Of a stretch of 64,000 nt of DNA, positions 17,382 through 62,465 are shown piece by piece. Numbering within the stretch: the first letter of the stretch is position 1; every line of letters starts with the position of its first letter. The notes beneath the pieces were generated by a model. The model made no database searches. It was given only the letters and a program-made list of their open reading frames with translations, and was not told the origin of the DNA. The position numbers and the translations under genes were made by a program. Source of the stretch: Ignavibacteria bacterium (GTDB taxonomy: Bacteria; Bacteroidota; Ignavibacteria; Kapaibacteriales; Kapaibacteriaceae); the NCBI GenBank assembly GCA_947495975.1, contig CANMBE010000001.1, forward strand, positions 62,001 to 126,000. Reading direction: 5' to 3'.

Positions 17382-20300
17382 TTATTGACGAACCAGACGG
17401 ACAACCCAACGCTGGCTAGCCGTGGTTACAACCACGTTGTACACACCGTGAGCAAGGATACCCATGTCTACTGATGTACGGAATGTTCCGCCGTCTGCAG
17501 TTTCGTTGAGTGTCATTACTAGCTCGCCGATTGCATTAACAAGTTCGATGCGGATCGGACCAGCTTGGCTGATCGAAGATTCAATAGAGAATTGACCATT
17601 CGATGGGTTCGGGAAGAGGCGAAGCTCAGCCTGACGGCCAGCTACAATGTCCTCATCAACGTCCGTTAGGATAACATCGAATGCATCAGATACCGACGAA
17701 CAAGTGTTGTTGTCTGCAATCTCAACACGGTATGAACCTGGGAGGCTCACTGTCAGTGCCTTGAAGTTAGCACCGGCAATCATCGTTCCGTTACGGAACC
17801 ACTGCCATGAAAGCGCAGCACCAGAGTTTGCAGTAAGAACATCACCCATCCGCGAGATCGTTGGTACAACCGGTAGGCTGTTAACGACAATCGGGGTCTT
17901 TGTTGAAAGGGCTGGGCACGAACTGCTATTCGTTACCGTTACCCAGTACTGACCTGCGGTTTGAATTGTGACCGAGCGGCCAGTTGCGCCATTCGACCAA
18001 ATGTAGGACGTAAATCCTGCAGGTGCCGTAAGTGTTACTGAACTACCATCACAGAACGTAGTTGGGCCATTTGCAATGATGACTGGAGGAACAATTGGGC
18101 TGGCAACAACACGTGCAGTGTCCGATGTACCAACACAACCATTCACGTCAACCACTTGCGCATAAACCGTGTCCGTTTGGCGGATGATGATTTTCCGTGA
18201 AGTACCGTAGTTCACAAGTGACGTTGAAACCCATGTGTAGGAGACAAAGCCAGCAGGTGCACGAACTTCAACACTATCACCAGCGCAGAGATTTGTAGAA
18301 CCAATCAGGCTAAGAACTGGTGTTGGCTTAGGATTTACAACTACATCAACTTCCGTGGATGTACCTGTGCAGCCATTACCATCAGCAATTGTTACAGTGT
18401 ACGAGCCAGACTTCACTACTACGATCGATTGCGTTTTTGCGCCATTCGACCAGAGGTAGGCAGTGAATCCGGCAGGTGCTGTAAGTGCTACGCTACCACC
18501 TTCACAGAACGTTGTTGGGCCGTTGATTGCAATGATTGGCAACGCACTTGGGAAGACGTTGATTTGAATTGTGTCAGAGCTGTTTGAGCAACCGTTAGCA
18601 TCTGTCACAATAGCCCAGTACTTGCCCGTAGTCCGTACAACGATGCTTCGTGCTGTTTGACCCGTGTTCCATACGTACGAAGCGAAACCGTTCGGCACGC
18701 TCAGTGTAACATCTCCACCTTGGCAGAACGTTGTGAGGCCAGAAGCCGTTACGATTGCGTTTGGTAGTGCCTTCACAGTAACGGTGCGAGTGTTGATTGC
18801 AACACAGAGGAAACTGTTGACTTCCGTTACAGTAATCGTTGCTGCGCCTGGAAGCGTCCATTCAACGGTTACGTTTGGTGTGCCTTGACCAGCGCGGATG
18901 ATGTTACCACCAGAGACCGCCCAGTTATAGCTGTTACCAGGGATACCTGTTGTGCTATAGTTCTGAAGCGAGTTCTGACAGACAGACGCTGAACCAGTGA
19001 TGGTCGGATTCGGAAGCGGATTGATCGTGACGTTGAGTGAACCAACGGCTGAGCAACCGAAGCTTGAGAGGTGTGTGACCGTAAGTGTACCGGTGATTGG
19101 CGTTAATAGACCGTTTGCCCACTGAACACCAATCGTGTTTGTACCCTGACCAGAGACGATTGCACCGTTTGTTACTGTCCAGGTTGGTGATACCGAACCT
19201 GAGCCAGCACCGATAACCGGTACGCTCGAATTGTATGTAGCCGTGTTGATGGTTTGCGGCGAATCTGAAAGATCCGTTGCGCATACCGGTGATGGGCCCG
19301 TAATCGTAGGTACAAGTGGGATTGGACGGATCGTAACGTTGAATGTGTTCGTGCCAAAGCATGAGCCGGCAGGTAGTACATCAGCAACATCTTCACGAAC
19401 CGCTACTGTTCCAGCTGTTGTGTTTGGCCACACTGGCGAGCTCCATGTTACACGGATTGTGTTTGGTGCAACAGTGACGAATGTGCCACCAACTACCGTC
19501 CACACATATGCGTTACCAGAGACGAGCGTTGTTGTGTAGTCTTGAACACTAATACCACACGGATTACCCTGACCTGTTATGACCGGCGTTGGCGTTGGTC
19601 TAATGAAGATCGAGTCTCTATCGGTTGTAATACAATCAGAGCCAGGAACAGTTTCTGTTGCGGCGATTGTACCGGTTCCGGCAGCACCCCAAAGAACTGT
19701 GATTTGATTCGTGTTGCTACCAGCTGTAATTGTTCCACCTGTTACAACCCACTGGAAGACATTTCCAGGTGTAGCTGTTACAGAGTATACATTCGAACTG
19801 TTGTTGCAAACGATACCCGGACGGCGTGTTGTTGGGCTACCGTATCCTGTAGCAGACTGAATGTCTGGTGTTGGAACCGGGTTAACACGAATGTTTGCCG
19901 TTGTTGTAGCAAAGCAGAAGCCACCAAGTGCTGTTTCCGTTACACTCATTGTGTGAAGACCCGGCTGAATCCAGCGAACCAAGATGGCATTACTTGCAGG
20001 ATATCCATTGATAGCAGCAAATGACGTTGCAGGAGTGATCACCCAGTTATAGGTGCTTCCTGGAACAACTGCTGGCGTTGAATATGTATGCTCCTTATTG
20101 ATACAAACAACTGTTGAACCGGTGATGGTTGGTGTAGGCGTGTAGCTAACCGCAACATTTGCCGTTACTGTTGTGAAGCACGGCGTACCCGTGGTTGTCT
20201 CCGTTACAGTCACAGTGTTGTTGCCGATTGTCTGCCACGTTACAGATAAGGTATTTGTTGTTGCCGTACCGTTAATCACTCCACCTGCCACTGTCCAGAG

Positions 20301-23300
20301 ATACGAGCTCGCACCATTTGCAGGTGTTGAGTACGTAATGGTCTGACCGTCACAAGCTTGGTTCACAGCACCAGCCGGTGTTATACGAGAGATTGCTGTA
20401 GCCGTTGGCGTTTGCTGAACTGTTGCTACAAGGTTTGCAGTGCGAGTACAGTTACCAGTGTTGTTTGTTTGAACCACAGACACAGTGTATGAGCCGGCGT
20501 TGTTCCATGTGACAGACATGCTGTTGCCATTCACTGCTGTTACGATTGTGCGATCTACAGCTGTTCCTGTGACTGACCATAGGTATGTGTGTCCGGCTAC
20601 GGCCGTTACTGAGTAAGCCTGTGTTGTACCTGAGCACACTGGTGTGCCACCGGAGATAACTGGATTTGGCTGCTCTTCAACCGAGACGCTGAGTGATTGG
20701 GACATGAAGCAACCAGGATTTGCCGCTGCTGTTTCCGTGACTGTCAGCGTTTGACCTCCAAGTGACGTCCAGTTAACTGTTACTGCGTTTGCATTGTTTA
20801 CACCTGTGATTGCACCACCTGTTACTGTCCAGAGGTACGTCGTTCCACCGCCGTTAGGTGTTGAATACGTGATAACATCATCCATACATGCCTGGTTGAG
20901 GAGGCCTGCTGGTGATGTACGAGAGATGACCGGTGCTGGTGTGGCCGTTACTGTTACGGTTGCCGTTGCCGTTGCTGAGCAAGGACCTGCGGTTTCCGTT
21001 ACTGTAACTGTGCGTGCGCCGGCTGTAAGCCACGTTACAGAGATTGTGCTGTTTGTTGTTCCAGTAATCGTGCGGTCTGCTGCAGCACCCGATACCGTCC
21101 AAGCATACGTGCTACCACCTAGTAACGGTGTGCTATATACTTGTGTTGTGCCCGTGCATAAGGCCAGACTGCCTGTGATTGTTGGCGTAGGGACTGTGTA
21201 CACCGTTACGCGGTTTGTATACGTGTTCGTGAATGCACAACCCAATGACCCGTTTGTTTCCGTTACCGTGATGTTGTAACTCGTTCCAGCGTTTGAACCA
21301 CCACCTGGATATGTGATGGTGGCAGTACCGTTTTGCGCACCAGATACAACGATCGTTGCTCCAGGGGCAGTTGTGCTCCATGTTAGCGTTGATGGTGATG
21401 CCAATGACGGAACTGCAGTATAAACTACATTCCCAGCTGCACAAACGTTCTGTGTGCCCGCAATTGTAGCAATCGCTACCGGTGTGGCCGTTACTGTTAC
21501 GGTTGCCGTTGCCGTTGCAAAACAAGGACCTGCGGATGCGGATTCTACTACTGTAAGTGTGCGTGTGCCCAGTGTATGCCACATCACAGAGAGTGTCTGG
21601 CTTGTTGTTCCAGAAACAATCGTGTGATCTGTTAGATTAACAACAGTAGCAGTACCAGCAGTTATCGTCCACACATATGTGTTACCAACTACTAATGACG
21701 GTGTGCTATATGCTTCTGTTGCGCCCGAGCATGCGGCCAGATTACCTGTGATTGTTGGTACAGCAGGTGTATTGTTGAAAATCGTTACGCGGTTTGTATA
21801 CGTGTTAATGACTGCACAACCCAATGCCCCATTTGTTTCCGTTACCACGATGTCGTAATCCGTTCCAGCGGCTGAACCACCAGTTGGATATGTGATGGTG
21901 GCAATTTCATTTTGCGTACCAACACCAGATACAACGATCGATGCTCCAGCAGTTGTGCTCCATGTAAGCACCGATGTTGCCAATGACGGAACAGCAGTAT
22001 ATACTACAGTCCCACCTTCGCAAACATCCTGTGTACCCGTAATAGTAGCAATCGCTACCGGTGTGGCTGTTGCTGTTACGAGTAACGTTGCCGCTACTAC
22101 GCAAGGACCTGCGGTTTCCGTTACTGTAAGTGTGCGTGTGCCGGCTGTAAGCCATTGCACAGAGAACACGTCGGTTAGTGCTCCAGAAATAATCGTGTGA
22201 TCTACTCCAGCAGCAACACCAGCACTACCAGCGGTTATCGTCCACGCATAGGTGCTAGCACCTAACAACGGTGTGCTATATACTTCTGTTGTTGCGCCCG
22301 TACACACTGCCACACTACCTGTGATTGCTGGTGTAGGGACTGTGTAAACCGTTACGCGGTTTGTATAGGTGTTCGTAAAGACACAACCCAATGACCCATT
22401 CGTTTCCGTTACCACAATGTCATAATCCGTTCCAGCGTTTGAACCACCAGTTGGATATGTGATGGTGGCAATTTCATCTTGCGTACCAACACCAGATAAT
22501 ACGATCGTTGCTCCAGCAGTTGTGCTCCATGTAAGCACCGATGTTGCCAATGACGGAACAGCAGTATATACTACAGTCCCACCTTCGCAAACATCCTGTG
22601 TGCCTGCAATTGTAGCAATCGCTACCGGTGTGGCTGTTGCTGTTACTACTTGCGTTGCCGTTGCTGAGCACAGACCTAAAATTTCGGTTTCCACGACAGT
22701 AAGTGTGCGTGTGCCCAATGTAAGCCATTGCACATCGAACGTCTGCGCTGTTGAGGTACTGATGATATTTTGATCTACTCCAGCAGCAACACCAGCAGTA
22801 CCAGCAGTTATCGTCCACACGTATGTGGCACCAACTGCTGTTGCCGGAGCGCTATATGTTTCTGTTGTTGTGCCCGTGCACACGGCAATACTACCTGAGA
22901 TCGTAGGTACGGCAGGTGTGGCTGTTGCTGTTACGAGTAACGTTGCCGCTACTACGCAAGGACCTGCGGTTTCCGTTACTGTAAGTGTGCGTGTGCCGGC
23001 TGTAAGCCATTGCACAGAGAACACGTCGCTTGTTGCTCCAGAAATAATCGTGTGATCTACTCCAGCTGCAACACCAGCAGTACCAGCCGTTATCGTCCAA
23101 GCATAGGTGCTAGCACCTGGTGCCGGCGTGCTATATACTTCTGTTGTTGCGCCCGTACACACTGCCGCACTACCTGTGATTGCTGGTGTAGGGGGGTCGA
23201 AAACCGTTACGCGGCTTGTATAGGTGTTAATGAATGCACAACCCATTGACCCATTTGTTTCCGTTACTACGATGTTGTAACTCGTTCCAGCATTTGAACC

Positions 23301-24587
23301 GCTAGCTGCACCTGAATAGGTGATGGTGGCAATTTCATCTTGCGTACCAACACCAGATAATATGATCGTTGCTCCAGGAGCAGTTGTGCTCCATGTAAGC
23401 ACCGATGTTGCCACTGACGGAACAGCAGTGTAGACTACAGTCCCAGCTTCGCAAACAGTTGTGTTGCCCGCAATTGTAGCAATCGCTACGGGTTGTCCTT
23501 CTGCAGTGATTGTATAGTCAGGCGATGTTATCGTTGCACAGTTATCAAGCGTTGTAACAGCATAATAATCCCACGTGCCATCGACCACTCCTGTTGGAAT
23601 TGCGGCTGATAAGGTGAATGGGCTTCCGCCTGGTCCATCTGTTCCAACAGATGTTCCACCAGAGCCGGCGCATGCGACGCCTATCGTTGGGCAACGGAAG
23701 AATTCTGTAGATGTACCAACAAGTACTGTTCCAGCTGGATCCCAGCTATACATTTCATTGCCGATATCTGCACCCGGAACGCGTTGGTTTTGTGCAACAA
23801 CGCCAGCATCAGGACAACCATTTACAAGACCGATTGAGTGGGCCGTTGCGGGAGCCACTACGTTTCGGTCGATCCCAGTTACACGGATTTCGATTTGGCC
23901 AGGATTGGCAGCATTATTACAGTGCAGTACCGCCTGAACCGTAACGAGGTCAGCAGCCGCGCCGTCATACGAAACTGCATCGAAGGTTACGAAAAGAAGG
24001 TCAGTAGCATCATCATATTCCCACCACACATCACCACCTAAACCAGGGTTAAGGTCCGTGTTGCACAGATAGATGGCCTTGTACGATCCTGCTGGTGCAG
24101 CAAGATCCTGCGCAAGAATCTGCGTTTGCAGTGCAGCGTTGCGGAAGGTTATAAAACCGTTCGATCCGATGTAGAAACCAGATCCTGCAGCTTTAAGGTT
24201 GATGTCCTGACCAAAGAAACGGAAGATACCGTTACCAACAGTAGCAGTAACAACTAACTGCTCAACTGAGACCTCGTCATCCGCCATAATTGGGGCGGCT
24301 CCGAAGTCAGAGAGATAGGTTTCAGCGCCGGACCCAGCAAAGGCCGCAGCCCATGCAAGCCCCGCAACACCATATCCATTAAGGCTCGTGCCTGCTGTTA
24401 CGGTTGCAGTGAGTGCTGTATTTCCACCAGCACAGTGTGGCGTTGTACCGGTTAAAGCAACTGTTTGTGCCTTCAACGAGATACCCGTGAGCATCACGGC
24501 GGTCGTGATGACCGTCAACATCAAAGCGTGAAGCCAACGCGCCACTCTAGGTTGTTGTGATGAGAACGCGGAATAGAATCGATTCAT
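17382..24587 (-). CDS. Giant Ig/PKD-repeat surface adhesin with type IX sorting domain
   Basis: Start chosen at ATG 24587, which has GGAGGA five bases upstream and begins a signal peptide (RVARWLHALMLTVITTAVMLTGISLKAQ); the frame stays open 85 codons further up but without such a site. 2401 residues. The N-terminal ~330 residues are a jelly-roll-like domain (SNGFITFRNAALQTQ, LFVTFDAVSYDGAAADLVTVQAVL). Then come about twenty Ig/PKD-like domains of roughly 85-95 residues: first an alternating, nearly identical pair family, later more divergent ones of the type ITGSxxVCxxxxxxYSTPxxxGxxYxWxVxGG, and near the end FCEGGSVALTAPAGF-type repeats with W/SNGA. The tail LRLFPNPSNGQFSIESSI ... GVYNVVVTTASQRW is a clear sorting domain. 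Likely a very long surface fibre or adhesin. Single-gene transcript ending at a strong terminator. Confidence 0.87.
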   Translation of the reverse strand: MNRFYSAFSSQQPRVARWLHALMLTVITTAVMLTGISLKAQTVALTGTTPHCAGGNTALTATVTAGTSLNGYGVAGLAWAAAFAGSGAETYLSDFGAAPIMADDEVSVEQLVVTATVGNGIFRFFGQDINLKAAGSGFYIGSNGFITFRNAALQTQILAQDLAAPAGSYKAIYLCNTDLNPGLGGDVWWEYDDATDLLFVTFDAVSYDGAAADLVTVQAVLHCNNAANPGQIEIRVTGIDRNVVAPATAHSIGLVNGCPDAGVVAQNQRVPGADIGNEMYSWDPAGTVLVGTSTEFFRCPTIGVACAGSGGTSVGTDGPGGSPFTLSAAIPTGVVDGTWDYYAVTTLDNCATITSPDYTITAEGQPVAIATIAGNTTVCEAGTVVYTAVPSVATSVLTWSTTAPGATIILSGVGTQDEIATITYSGAASGSNAGTSYNIVVTETNGSMGCAFINTYTSRVTVFDPPTPAITGSAAVCTGATTEVYSTPAPGASTYAWTITAGTAGVAAGVDHTIISGATSDVFSVQWLTAGTRTLTVTETAGPCVVAATLLVTATATPAVPTISGSIAVCTGTTTETYSAPATAVGATYVWTITAGTAGVAAGVDQNIISTSTAQTFDVQWLTLGTRTLTVVETEILGLCSATATQVVTATATPVAIATIAGTQDVCEGGTVVYTAVPSLATSVLTWSTTAGATIVLSGVGTQDEIATITYPTGGSNAGTDYDIVVTETNGSLGCVFTNTYTNRVTVYTVPTPAITGSVAVCTGATTEVYSTPLLGASTYAWTITAGSAGVAAGVDHTIISGALTDVFSVQWLTAGTRTLTVTETAGPCVVAATLLVTATATPVAIATITGTQDVCEGGTVVYTAVPSLATSVLTWSTTAGASIVVSGVGTQNEIATITYPTGGSAAGTDYDIVVTETNGALGCAVINTYTNRVTIFNNTPAVPTITGNLAACSGATEAYSTPSLVVGNTYVWTITAGTATVVNLTDHTIVSGTTSQTLSVMWHTLGTRTLTVVESASAGPCFATATATVTVTATPVAIATIAGTQNVCAAGNVVYTAVPSLASPSTLTWSTTAPGATIVVSGAQNGTATITYPGGGSNAGTSYNITVTETNGSLGCAFTNTYTNRVTVYTVPTPTITGSLALCTGTTQVYSTPLLGGSTYAWTVSGAAADRTITGTTNSTISVTWLTAGARTVTVTETAGPCSATATATVTVTATPAPVISRTSPAGLLNQACMDDVITYSTPNGGGTTYLWTVTGGAITGVNNANAVTVNWTSLGGQTLTVTETAAANPGCFMSQSLSVSVEEQPNPVISGGTPVCSGTTQAYSVTAVAGHTYLWSVTGTAVDRTIVTAVNGNSMSVTWNNAGSYTVSVVQTNNTGNCTRTANLVATVQQTPTATAISRITPAGAVNQACDGQTITYSTPANGASSYLWTVAGGVINGTATTNTLSVTWQTIGNNTVTVTETTTGTPCFTTVTANVAVSYTPTPTITGSTVVCINKEHTYSTPAVVPGSTYNWVITPATSFAAINGYPASNAILVRWIQPGLHTMSVTETALGGFCFATTTANIRVNPVPTPDIQSATGYGSPTTRRPGIVCNNSSNVYSVTATPGNVFQWVVTGGTITAGSNTNQITVLWGAAGTGTIAATETVPGSDCITTDRDSIFIRPTPTPVITGQGNPCGISVQDYTTTLVSGNAYVWTVVGGTFVTVAPNTIRVTWSSPVWPNTTAGTVAVREDVADVLPAGSCFGTNTFNVTIRPIPLVPTITGPSPVCATDLSDSPQTINTATYNSSVPVIGAGSGSVSPTWTVTNGAIVSGQGTNTIGVQWANGLLTPITGTLTVTHLSSFGCSAVGSLNVTINPLPNPTITGSASVCQNSLQNYSTTGIPGNSYNWAVSGGNIIRAGQGTPNVTVEWTLPGAATITVTEVNSFLCVAINTRTVTVKALPNAIVTASGLTTFCQGGDVTLSVPNGFASYVWNTGQTARSIVVRTTGKYWAIVTDANGCSNSSDTIQINVFPSALPIIAINGPTTFCEGGSVALTAPAGFTAYLWSNGAKTQSIVVVKSGSYTVTIADGNGCTGTSTEVDVVVNPKPTPVLSLIGSTNLCAGDSVEVRAPAGFVSYTWVSTSLVNYGTSRKIIIRQTDTVYAQVVDVNGCVGTSDTARVVASPIVPPVIIANGPTTFCDGSSVTLTAPAGFTSYIWSNGATGRSVTIQTAGQYWVTVTNSSSCPALSTKTPIVVNSLPVVPTISRMGDVLTANSGAALSWQWFRNGTMIAGANFKALTVSLPGSYRVEIADNNTCSSVSDAFDVILTDVDEDIVAGRQAELRLFPNPSNGQFSIESSISQAGPIRIELVNAIGELVMTLNETADGGTFRTSVDMGILAHGVYNVVVTTASQRWVVRLVRQ
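20930..23480 (-). repeat. Nearly identical tandem coding repeats in the adhesin
   Basis: Two alternating Ig-like modules repeat here with a combined unit near 567 bp (189 codons): the DNA around 21950-22100 recurs 567 bp later around 22517-22667. A 114-bp stretch at 22060-22173 is identical base for base to 22915-23028. Such identity at DNA level, against clear divergence elsewhere in the gene, indicates recent duplication or gene conversion. Assembly collapse or expansion is a real possibility in this part. Confidence 0.85.
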
Positions 24588-25093
24588 ACGATCCTCCAAA
24601 TGAGAACGTGAAATATTGTTATTCATCTTATTATTAATCATCATGGTACTGGTTTGATGTTTGCCTACGGCAAACGCCAATAGACGCTTAGAGCGTCTTG
24701 TTTTTTTACTGATTTCGTTTTCGAGGGTCTTAAGCACCCTGTCTCCTTGGTACCTTATTTTCATACTGCTCTTCCGGTCCGTTGAATGATAACGGCACGG
24801 CAAACAACGCCTCCGTTGCCAGAGGTGTTTCCATTGCCGCAAAAATAGCTTCCAAGCACGTATCCACCAAACACGAATTTACCACAGAGCATCTTTTGTG
24901 CTAAGAGGGTTACGCTTTGTGTATGGGATTTGTACATCTTCTTGCTCATTAATAGTGATTGCGACCCACGATTCCCACCTTACGGTGTATATACGTAGCC
25001 AGAACTGTGAAACAGATTCCACACCTACAAGGCAAGCAGCCAAGATAGTGGAGGCTTACCCCCCAAAAATCTAGCACACCTTGATGGCAAAGG
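24588..25093. other. 506-bp non-coding gap upstream of the adhesin
   Basis: No convincing gene. It separates obg (stop at 25094) from the adhesin start, both on the minus strand, so it should hold the adhesin promoter and a long leader. An in-frame run of codons upstream of the adhesin start (to about 24842) and a 62-codon frame at 24761-24949 have no recognisable product. Two small hairpins lie at 24659-24698 (separate entry), and a third imperfect inverted repeat AGGGT/ACCCT around CTTAAG lies near 24725-24740. I could not identify a known riboswitch or a clear promoter box. Confidence 0.6.
24659..24698 (-). promoter_or_regulatory. Two adjacent hairpins in the adhesin leader
   Basis: Hairpin A: GTTTGCC-TAC-GGCAAAC at 24659-24675 (7-bp stem). 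Hairpin B: AGACGCT-TAG-AGCGTCT at 24682-24698 (7-bp stem), followed on the plus strand by TGTTTTTTT (24699-24707). In the adhesin mRNA (minus strand) they lie about 70-110 bases ahead of the start and could be a leader structure or stabiliser. On the plus strand hairpin B looks like a terminator, perhaps for antisense transcription. Function not shown. Confidence 0.4.
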
Positions 25094-60548: not shown

Positions 60549-62465
60549 CTATTGGATAATTGCGCGCACACTTCGATTGGCAGTCCTGCCCATTGGTGTC
60601 TCGTTAGATGCAGCGGTTGTGACTACAGCAGAGACAGAAACATCTTGGTCCCGCACGCCCAGTAACTCAATTGCAGCGCGAGCCCTACGTTGAAGTAATT
60701 GCTCGTTGTACAACTCAGTACCAAGATTGTCAGCACTCGGAATCAGCGTCACTTTTTTACCTGCTGCAATGGCATCACGCACAGCGGCTATGGCATCTGG
60801 ATTGGTTGTTAGAAACGTAGATGCATCAAACGAGAAGTGGCCGAGCACAAGTGGGTCGCCACCAATTTGCTCTGCCCCCACTGTTGTTCGCACCTCACTC
60901 CTACTGCGAACCTGCGGTGCGATCATAACCGTCGTGGCAGACGTTGCTCGGCGCCCCGTTGTGTCCGTCACAAGTCCTTGTACCTCGAGTGTTTCTGTCC
61001 GTCCAACATTCAAGAGGCCACTCTGCGGCAACACAACCGAATACACGGGTCCAATTCCTTGCACCTTGATATCCATTCCAACAAATCGAACACGAAGTTC
61101 TGAATCACACGGACCTGCTTCGCATGTGATGATATGAGACACAGGAATTACAACATCAATGGAGGTACGAGTGGTGTCTCGTTGAACAATGAGAATAACT
61201 ATTGACTTGTTGTTTACCAAAAAGGACACCGAGCGGTGCTCTGCTGCAAGCTCGGGATATGGAACATCACCTTGCTGCTCTGTTCGCATCGTAAGTCGCG
61301 ATGCATCAATGCCAAGTTCGTTGATTGTCCAAGACAGACGCTCCTTGGCAAGTGACGGTTCTTCATCCGCAGAAGAAGAACCAATTACAGTTATCCGTGC
61401 TTCAGGATGTTCAATTGCATATTGGCGCAATGCCTTCAACACGCTCTGTTGGTACATACCAAGTTGAGTTGTTGAACTCAGCGGTAGCGTGCTATTCTTT
61501 GCAAAGAACACGACCGGAGCTGCCTCGTATGAGACGATGGCTACAACCTCATTGACAGATGCCACGTCAATTGTATCGACCCGCCGCTTCACTCCCTCCA
61601 CACCAACCTCAGAGCGAAGCGCAGCTACAACCACTGGCGGTGGTGGCGGTGGTGGTGGCGGTGGCGGAGATGTAGTATTCTTTGAGAGACGGTAGTGAAG
61701 AGTGATCCCACCACGTAGTGCACCAACAGACCATGAGAGCGAGGATACAACGTTGGATAACCCAAACTGATACACAATCTCTGGTGAGATTGCCAGCTGA
61801 TTACTTACTGTATGTTCATATCGCAGGCCGAGTATAAGTCCGGCATATAAACCAGACTTACGAGGAATAGCTCCTTCAGATTGATTACGCTCCCGTAATC
61901 CATTCTCAAATGTATAGTTCGGATCTGATGGAGACGTTAGCTCTTGCTTCTGTACATACGAGGCGCCAATCGGTATACCTGCAATCAATCCAAGATGCAA
62001 GCGCAGTGGTATGGATGGGGCGATGGGGATCGAGACAAATGGTTCAACTCCAATAACGCTGTAGGCTGCGCCAAGCTTATGCTGAACTGTGCCCTGCGTT
62101 ACAGATGTGCCATTTATGATGTTTCCTACAAACTCAGGCTGCGAAAGTGTACCAGAGAGGATCTGATACGTGCCACCAACACCGAGTTGCAATGGTTGAT
62201 CAAAGATTCTCACGGAGAGATCAGTTTCAATTCCTGCTTTGATGGCCACGCCAAAACCAGATCCCGACGTAAAAGTGGTGCAGCAGTTAGGTACCGATGG
62301 CAATGCAACAAAATTGGCGCTGTGTGTATTGAGTCCAGCAAACGCACCTCCAAACAAACGAAGTGCGGTTAACGAGGTGTCGCGCTCCTGTGATTGCAGT
62401 GTTCCACAGACAAACATCAAGGCACATATTGCACGCCACGGGCGAAGAGGGCTATGTACGCTCAT
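60549..62465 (-). CDS. Outer-membrane barrel protein with polyproline linker and two OmpA-like domains
   Basis: 638 residues. Signal region MSVHSPLRPWRAICALMFVCGTLQSQ, then a barrel-like N-terminal domain (~30-265: GFGVAIKAGIETDLSVRIFDQPLQLGVGGTYQILSG ... LGLRYEHTVSNQLAISPEIVYQFG ... GGITLHYRLSK). A run of eleven prolines follows, then two OmpA-like segments: one with VFFAKNSTLPLSSTTQLGMYQ... HPEARITVIGSSSADEE...LAKERLSWTINELGI, one near the end with FSFDASTFLTTNPDAIAAVRDAIAAG...LLQRRARAAIELLGV. It probably ties the outer membrane to peptidoglycan or stiffens the envelope. The start overlaps the previous gene's stop by four bases. Confidence 0.78.
   Translation of the reverse strand: MSVHSPLRPWRAICALMFVCGTLQSQERDTSLTALRLFGGAFAGLNTHSANFVALPSVPNCCTTFTSGSGFGVAIKAGIETDLSVRIFDQPLQLGVGGTYQILSGTLSQPEFVGNIINGTSVTQGTVQHKLGAAYSVIGVEPFVSIPIAPSIPLRLHLGLIAGIPIGASYVQKQELTSPSDPNYTFENGLRERNQSEGAIPRKSGLYAGLILGLRYEHTVSNQLAISPEIVYQFGLSNVVSSLSWSVGALRGGITLHYRLSKNTTSPPPPPPPPPPPVVVAALRSEVGVEGVKRRVDTIDVASVNEVVAIVSYEAAPVVFFAKNSTLPLSSTTQLGMYQQSVLKALRQYAIEHPEARITVIGSSSADEEPSLAKERLSWTINELGIDASRLTMRTEQQGDVPYPELAAEHRSVSFLVNNKSIVILIVQRDTTRTSIDVVIPVSHIITCEAGPCDSELRVRFVGMDIKVQGIGPVYSVVLPQSGLLNVGRTETLEVQGLVTDTTGRRATSATTVMIAPQVRSRSEVRTTVGAEQIGGDPLVLGHFSFDASTFLTTNPDAIAAVRDAIAAGKKVTLIPSADNLGTELYNEQLLQRRARAAIELLGVRDQDVSVSAVVTTAASNETPMGRTANRSVRAIIQ
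61637..61669 (-). repeat. GGN trinucleotide run coding for the polyproline linker
   Basis: About eleven GGT/GGC triplets (plus strand), coding for eleven Pro on the minus strand. It is a short tandem run that can grow or shrink by whole codons without changing the frame, so linker length may vary between strains. Confidence 0.7.

Follow-up and report, generated by a model that had tools for sequence, protein, structure and literature searches.

As judged from the sequence, a young alternating domain array sits in one gene of the 64,000-nucleotide stretch analysed here (the window; positions 62,001 to 126,000 of contig CANMBE010000001.1, Ignavibacteria bacterium assembly GCA_947495975.1) at the place where relatives carry a long middle. 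We consider it rather probable that this lineage lost the middle of a T9SS-type stalk protein and then amplified the two domains at its boundaries, A and B, into an array whose copies exchange short tracts. The kind of process is already known, and what makes the case useful is the preserved older layout: because relatives keep what is likely the older arrangement, the two source domains of the young array can be named. Such naming is rare, and the locus might be seen as a snapshot of how stalks of this type may be rebuilt, here for a T9SS cargo protein from an uncultured lineage (an environmental bacterium).

From the N-terminal side, the protein consists of a probable signal peptide, an N-terminal domain (NTD), 17 Ig/PKD-like domains, which were numbered U1-U17 from that side according to our own division of the stalk, and a T9SS sorting tail (Table 1). 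The open frame extends beyond the conserved start codon to 24842 and holds an in-frame ATG at 24764, which may be the true start. In a Pfam search of the whole protein, 15 stretches matched PKD_6 (PF19408) with 191 bits against a gathering score of 25; among the isolated units tried (U3, U4 and U5), U3 and U5 stayed under the gathering score and U4 gave no match. Six of the seven PKD_6 matches at E<=0.001 in the window's own genome (2.18 Mb in 24 contigs) lie inside the stalk gene. The C-terminal sorting domain scored 37.7 bits with PF18962 (cut-off 27) and 25 with TIGR04183 (cut-off 23), and the genome encodes SprA (TIGR04189, with matches in one frame adding up to 917 bits against 200), so that by sorting domain and SprA the stalk protein is a predicted type A cargo of the T9SS. 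At E<=0.001, Por_Secre_tail matches this genome 88 times, with 51 matches flagged as exceeding the cut-off, and the predicted T9SS cargo load is large. AF2 modelling of the two domains U4U5 gave five models with mean pLDDT of 81, 76, 53, 48 and 47; Foldseek with the A-B model returned titin Ig pairs and GhpA (9fly; TMq 0.53, 21% identity), and the label Ig, given to the repeats in an earlier note on this DNA, agrees with this predicted fold. The word adhesin in the same note we treat as presumptive. Searched by sequence against solved structures, the A2 profile had no significant match (best E=0.083, antibody chains).

Table 1. Features of the stalk gene, in window coordinates.
Feature	Coordinates	Strand	Remarks
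T9SS-type multi-domain stalk protein gene	17382..24587	minus	2401 aa from conserved ATG behind GGAGG motif
Signal-peptide-like segment, residues 1-41	24465..24587	minus	judged by eye; kept in orthologues
N-terminal domain (NTD)	23490..24464	minus	without Pfam match; aa identity 47% to G004, 50% to G007
U1, type A domain	23190..23489	minus	
U2, type B domain	22914..23189	minus	
U3, type C (diverged B) domain	22626..22913	minus	PKD_6 21.8 bits
U4, type A domain	22335..22625	minus	without Pfam match
U5, type B domain	22059..22334	minus	95% nt identity to U2; PKD_6 24.2 bits
U6, type A domain	21765..22058	minus	90% nt identity to U4
U7, type C domain	21480..21764	minus	
U8, type A domain	21189..21479	minus	A copy nearest congeners' A: bit score 4/4, identity 3/4
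U9, B domain	20937..21188	minus	probable positional orthologue of relatives' B
U10-U17, diverged domains	18762..20936	minus	one-to-one pairing with G004
Por_Secre_tail / T9SS type A sorting domain	17403..17618	minus	
114-nt tract in U5	22060..22173	minus	identical to 22915..23028 in U2, spacing 855
114-nt tract in U2	22915..23028	minus	identical to 22060..22173 in U5
93-nt tract in U6	21942..22034	minus	identical to 22509..22601 in U4, spacing 567
93-nt tract in U4	22509..22601	minus	identical to 21942..22034 in U6

Nine domains at 20937-23489 form the array A-B-C-A-B-A-C-A-B, which fits the interval 20930-23480 in which the earlier note had placed near-identical alternating repeats. The class A domains (U1, U4, U6 and U8) share 82-90% nt identity, while class B consists of U2 and U5 (95%) and has diverged relatives in U3, U7 and U9 (68-80%). 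Since protein identity between A and B/C units is only 29-38%, adjacent domains of the array are unlike, except for U2-U3 (68%). The contrast that the note had drawn with strongly diverged repeats elsewhere in the gene is also found, the mutual DNA identity of U10-U17 being only 41-58%. The repeats are real: the reported recurrence of 22060-22173 at 22915-23028 is exact over all 114 nt, the 93-nt pair is the second-longest exact repeat after it, and 18 pairs of exact direct repeats of at least 24 nt lie within the stalk gene, with none involving the window outside it. TRF, with a longest period of 500, listed no array. What did not stand is the claim of a 567-bp unit repeated with very few changes, as U4U5 vs U6U7 differ at 92 of 564 sites (84% identity; U4 vs U6, the first half of the unit, at 28 of 291 compared sites), and identities of 90-95% are reached by single domains. 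A register of 855 bp fits better (U1U2 vs U4U5, 54 differences in 567), and at the protein level U4U5 is 87% identical to U1U2, with U3 between them, and 73% identical to the contiguous U6U7.

The relatives compared are MAGs, mostly of Candidatus Kapaibacterium or Ignavibacteria and one of Bacteroidetes, with one genome per species. Domains were mapped by per-domain searches; whole-protein gapped BLAST mixed the repeats with one another. All 11 genomes of the genus that were searched, the window's own included, match at E<=1e-20, G008 with only 96 bits in a 384-aa frame. The proteins of four congeners (G004, G005, G006 and G007) are 3573-3984 aa long, and with these U12-U17 and the C-terminal part pair one-to-one at 62-92% identity; U10 and U11 are one-to-one in G004 (79 and 77%), and both match a duplicated block in G007. 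Every A copy of the window maps to one position directly behind the NTD of the congeners (374-465 in G004, 370-466 in G007, within 370-470 in G005 and G006), and every B/C copy to one other position (2337-2420 in G004, 2319-2401 in G005, 2327-2411 in G006), or to two in G007, which has the duplicated block. The spacing from A to B is 1,854-1,901 residues in the four congeners, and the middle between them is common to G004-G007 at 50-81% identity. A search of the window's genome with the 1,871-aa middle of G004 gave one 59-residue match (E=3e-4) and nothing else.

A short form, in which the signal-peptide-like segment is joined straight to U12, was found in G001, G002, G003, G009 and G010 (1066-1072 aa in the three complete genes; the locus is cut at the contig start in G009 and at the contig end in G002). 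At these loci (L036-L040, in the order G009, G002, G003, G001, G010) an Obg-like frame lies upstream in four, where the contig reaches, and a BNR-like frame downstream in four; the window has the same Obg-like and BNR-like neighbours. In the family, NTD and U1 were matched at E<=1e-8 in 13 of 23 genomes, own included; for the 12 of the 22 other genomes the matches are all in frames of 3110-4209 aa. At the same threshold, extra A copies were found in the window's genome only, among the 23. Measured from the conserved ATG, long orthologues have 3049-4146 aa, and length between species ranges from 1066 to 4146 aa across orthologues. The long form is probably the older layout, because it is found in other genera.

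Exact repeats of at least 24 nt number 18 in the window gene, one in G007, two in G015 and none in 15 orthologues, and no exact repeat longer than 32 nt occurs among the 17 orthologues, five of which are short forms without the array region. The block of G007 (L033) is an independent duplication, at open-frame residues about 2538 and 2889 (shift 351 residues). With 94% protein identity over 80 residues, a longest exact DNA repeat of only 26 nt, and a dS of 1.88 between its two B copies, it is an old duplication that selection has maintained, in contrast to the array of the window. Self-matches of 70-79% were observed in the same part of the stalk in G005, G006, G013 and G015; on account of these and of the G007 block, that part seems prone to duplication.

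The leader of the gene (24588-24871, minus strand) is conserved across genera in 13 aligned long-form genes, the window included. In the window it holds a promoter-like TTTG-N20-TATTTTTG of the Bacteroidota type and a GGAGGATCGTATG start region. The upstream ATG is in frame in 12 of the 13 genes, the exception being G014, and would add 59 residues in the window. A second copy of the leader was not found in the genome, the best other match having E=0.18. Inside the possible coding extension lies a hairpin (24683-24697, minus strand) with five of six pairs kept in all 13 long forms and with two-sided changes at two pairs in the window and G004. Rfam gave no gathering matches in the window or in 10 of the 17 orthologue loci, and none for the leader up to E=1. 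Because the covariation term of RNAalifold over the 13 leaders is only -0.83, we do not propose a regulatory RNA.

Synonymous distances (Nei-Gojobori, own script) bear on the age of the copies. The A copies form one clade (95/94) in a tree with seven of the 12 long orthologues, the other five, whose best A match is not behind the NTD, being left out. They look much younger than the species split, since dS among them is 0.17-0.31 vs 1.59 between U8 and the G004 domain; between the window and G004, dS is 0.53 for B (U9) and 0.70 over the part that runs from U12 to the end. The recent duplication proposed in the earlier note is thus supported for the A domains and no more than possible for B/C, where dS among copies is 0.09-0.55. 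In the B tree, with 11 of the 12 long orthologues (G021 was left out despite a 39% match), U2-U5 is firm (100/99), U3-U7 likely (86/91), and U9 groups with the orthologues (83/91); the data neither favour nor reject B/C monophyly (AU p=0.28). Because the U3-U9 dS (0.55) equals that of U9-G004 (0.53), some of the variety among B/C copies may be older than the split. Meanwhile, dN/dS between copies is 0.37-1.70, vs 0.12-0.19 from U12 to the end, and 0.11-0.48 for those between-species A and B pairs that have a finite dS. The between-copy values may stem from relaxed constraint or from diversifying selection.

Identity between copies is patchy, and this could reflect either exchange of tracts or plain duplications with uneven constraint. 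U2 and U5 have no differences inside the 114-nt tract vs 15 in 162 sites outside (9%), and U4 and U6 none inside the 93-nt tract vs 28 in 198 outside (14%), both tracts having been picked after the fact. If constraint had made these patches, the other copy pairs would not be expected to be equally diverged inside and outside the tracts, as they are: the other nine B/C pairs differ by 17-27% inside the 114-nt tract, with no tract effect, and the other five A pairs show no effect of the 93-nt tract. Permutation within codon position gave p=0.00015 for the longest identical run of U4/U6 and p=0.0037 for that of U2/U5 (both values uncorrected for the 12 runs tested), and a global all-site permutation over all pairs gave p=0.0013 for A and p=0.0033 for B/C, where the best pair is U3/U7, not U2/U5. 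Duplication without exchange draws on the permutation restricted to codons silent in all copies, which was not significant (p=0.09 and 0.38; 15 and 14 columns). The gene conversion or unequal exchange suggested by the earlier note is therefore backed by the patchy identity and the permutations, but not by silent sites taken alone; on these sequence patterns exchange between copies is likely, and we regard its complete absence as doubtful.

The N-terminal head raises another alternative, namely that the whole 5' half (NTD and array) entered by recombination from an unsampled relative in which the array was already present, with no deletion or amplification in this lineage. The leader and C block of the window are close to G004, unlike the NTD, which has only 47% identity to G004 (whose NTD contains a run of unknown bases) and 50% to G007, vs 74% between G004 and G007. 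In the NTD tree (window and 12 long orthologues of the 17), G004, G007, G005 and G006 are joined without the window (89/95), whereas the C-block tree places the window as sister to G004 (98). However, grouping the NTDs of the window, G004 and G007 into one clade is not rejected by an AU test (p=0.08), and no NTD nearer to that of the window was found among the 23 family genomes searched. A fast-evolving head is also general, since dS of the NTD exceeds that of the part from U12 onward in other pairs too (G004-G007, 1.81 vs 0.78; G005-G006, 1.05 vs 0.34). The divergent NTD, for which AF2 gave a pLDDT of 36, is possible via import or via fast evolution, and import of the entire 5' half seems to us somewhat unlikely. 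An assembly artefact, with a wrong copy number or a chimeric A-B join, is very improbable; it would draw on the fact that this is a single assembly of 24 contigs and that tandem repeats are said to produce assembly errors (PMC6868369), but the longest exact repeat is 114 nt, every copy has differences of its own, the frame is open throughout, and collapse would conceal copies, not create nine different ones. That copy number changes between cells today and thereby alters reach, as the layout resembling Periscope Proteins (PMC8201768) might suggest, we likewise think unlikely, because the longest perfect homology is 114 nt and the contiguous U4U5 and U6U7 share just 73% protein identity.

The reading we favour, amplification after loss of the middle, starts from what is directly observed: how the domains are laid out, the single domain of the congeners to which each class maps, the absence of the middle from the assembly, the patchy identity and the low dS of the A copies. 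A T9SS-exported surface stalk protein with an N-terminal head would have been remodelled in this lineage. Loss of about 1,870 residues between A and B would have brought the two together, and the A-B module would then have been amplified to A-B-C-A-B-A-C-A-B; we infer this order of events, and that B/C belonged to the same episode as A. The copies would exchange short tracts, presumably through intragenic recombination, while their amino acids diverge. The signal peptide would direct the protein into the Sec pathway, and its type A sorting domain would then lead to T9SS export, with attachment probably at the C-terminal side, by analogy with the type A cargo of Porphyromonas (PMC9143113). Stacked Ig-like domains, presumably forming a rod, would keep the NTD at a distance from the cell, and a change of the array may then change reach or the binding of a putative partner in adhesion. 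Alternation separates the domains that are most alike, as expected if like neighbouring domains misfold (PMC4660218). On a broader and quite tentative reading, there is one family locus in which the C-terminal half and the start region are kept and the distal half is lost, replaced and rebuilt time and again; the array of the window species would have been regenerated from the two domains left at the deletion, self-recombining, under a divergent head, and length-variable within the population. The distal half is absent in five congeners and spans about 2,200-2,600 residues from head to C block in four others.

A literature search limited to open-licence papers turned up no account of this locus. 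Among solved proteins, only GhpA (the grappling hook protein of Aureispira sp., PDB 9flp and others) gave a significant match by sequence (E=5e-80, in 15 stretches), which comes from repeated Ig-like domains in the C-terminal part. GhpA was rejected as a whole-length homologue: unlike the stalk protein, it is a chain of 5898 aa, and its matches are repeat-to-repeat, hitting many GhpA repeats, not collinear, and significant only from query residue 1734 on. With SprB-type T9SS adhesins, as described in PMC9143113, the protein shares its character of a large repetitive T9SS-exported surface protein; the CTD of SprB is type B, whereas the stalk protein matches the type A model TIGR04183. A parallel in architecture exists with the Periscope Proteins (SasG, Rib and Sgo_0707; PMC8201768), which also combine an N-terminal domain with a stalk built from folded repeat domains, differ in length, are proposed to undergo inter-repeat recombination, and are attached to the surface at the C-terminal side, as is presumed here. 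Unlike them, the present protein has a T9SS sorting tail, its A and B domains alternate so that the most alike copies are non-adjacent, and its variation is seen between species only. Periscope Proteins are delimited in that paper by tandem repeats that are longer than 50 residues and, in T-REKS, 80% or more identical, and the contiguous modules here (U4U5 vs U6U7, 73%) fall below this cut. Strict membership aside, by analogy the stalk may work like that of a Periscope Protein.
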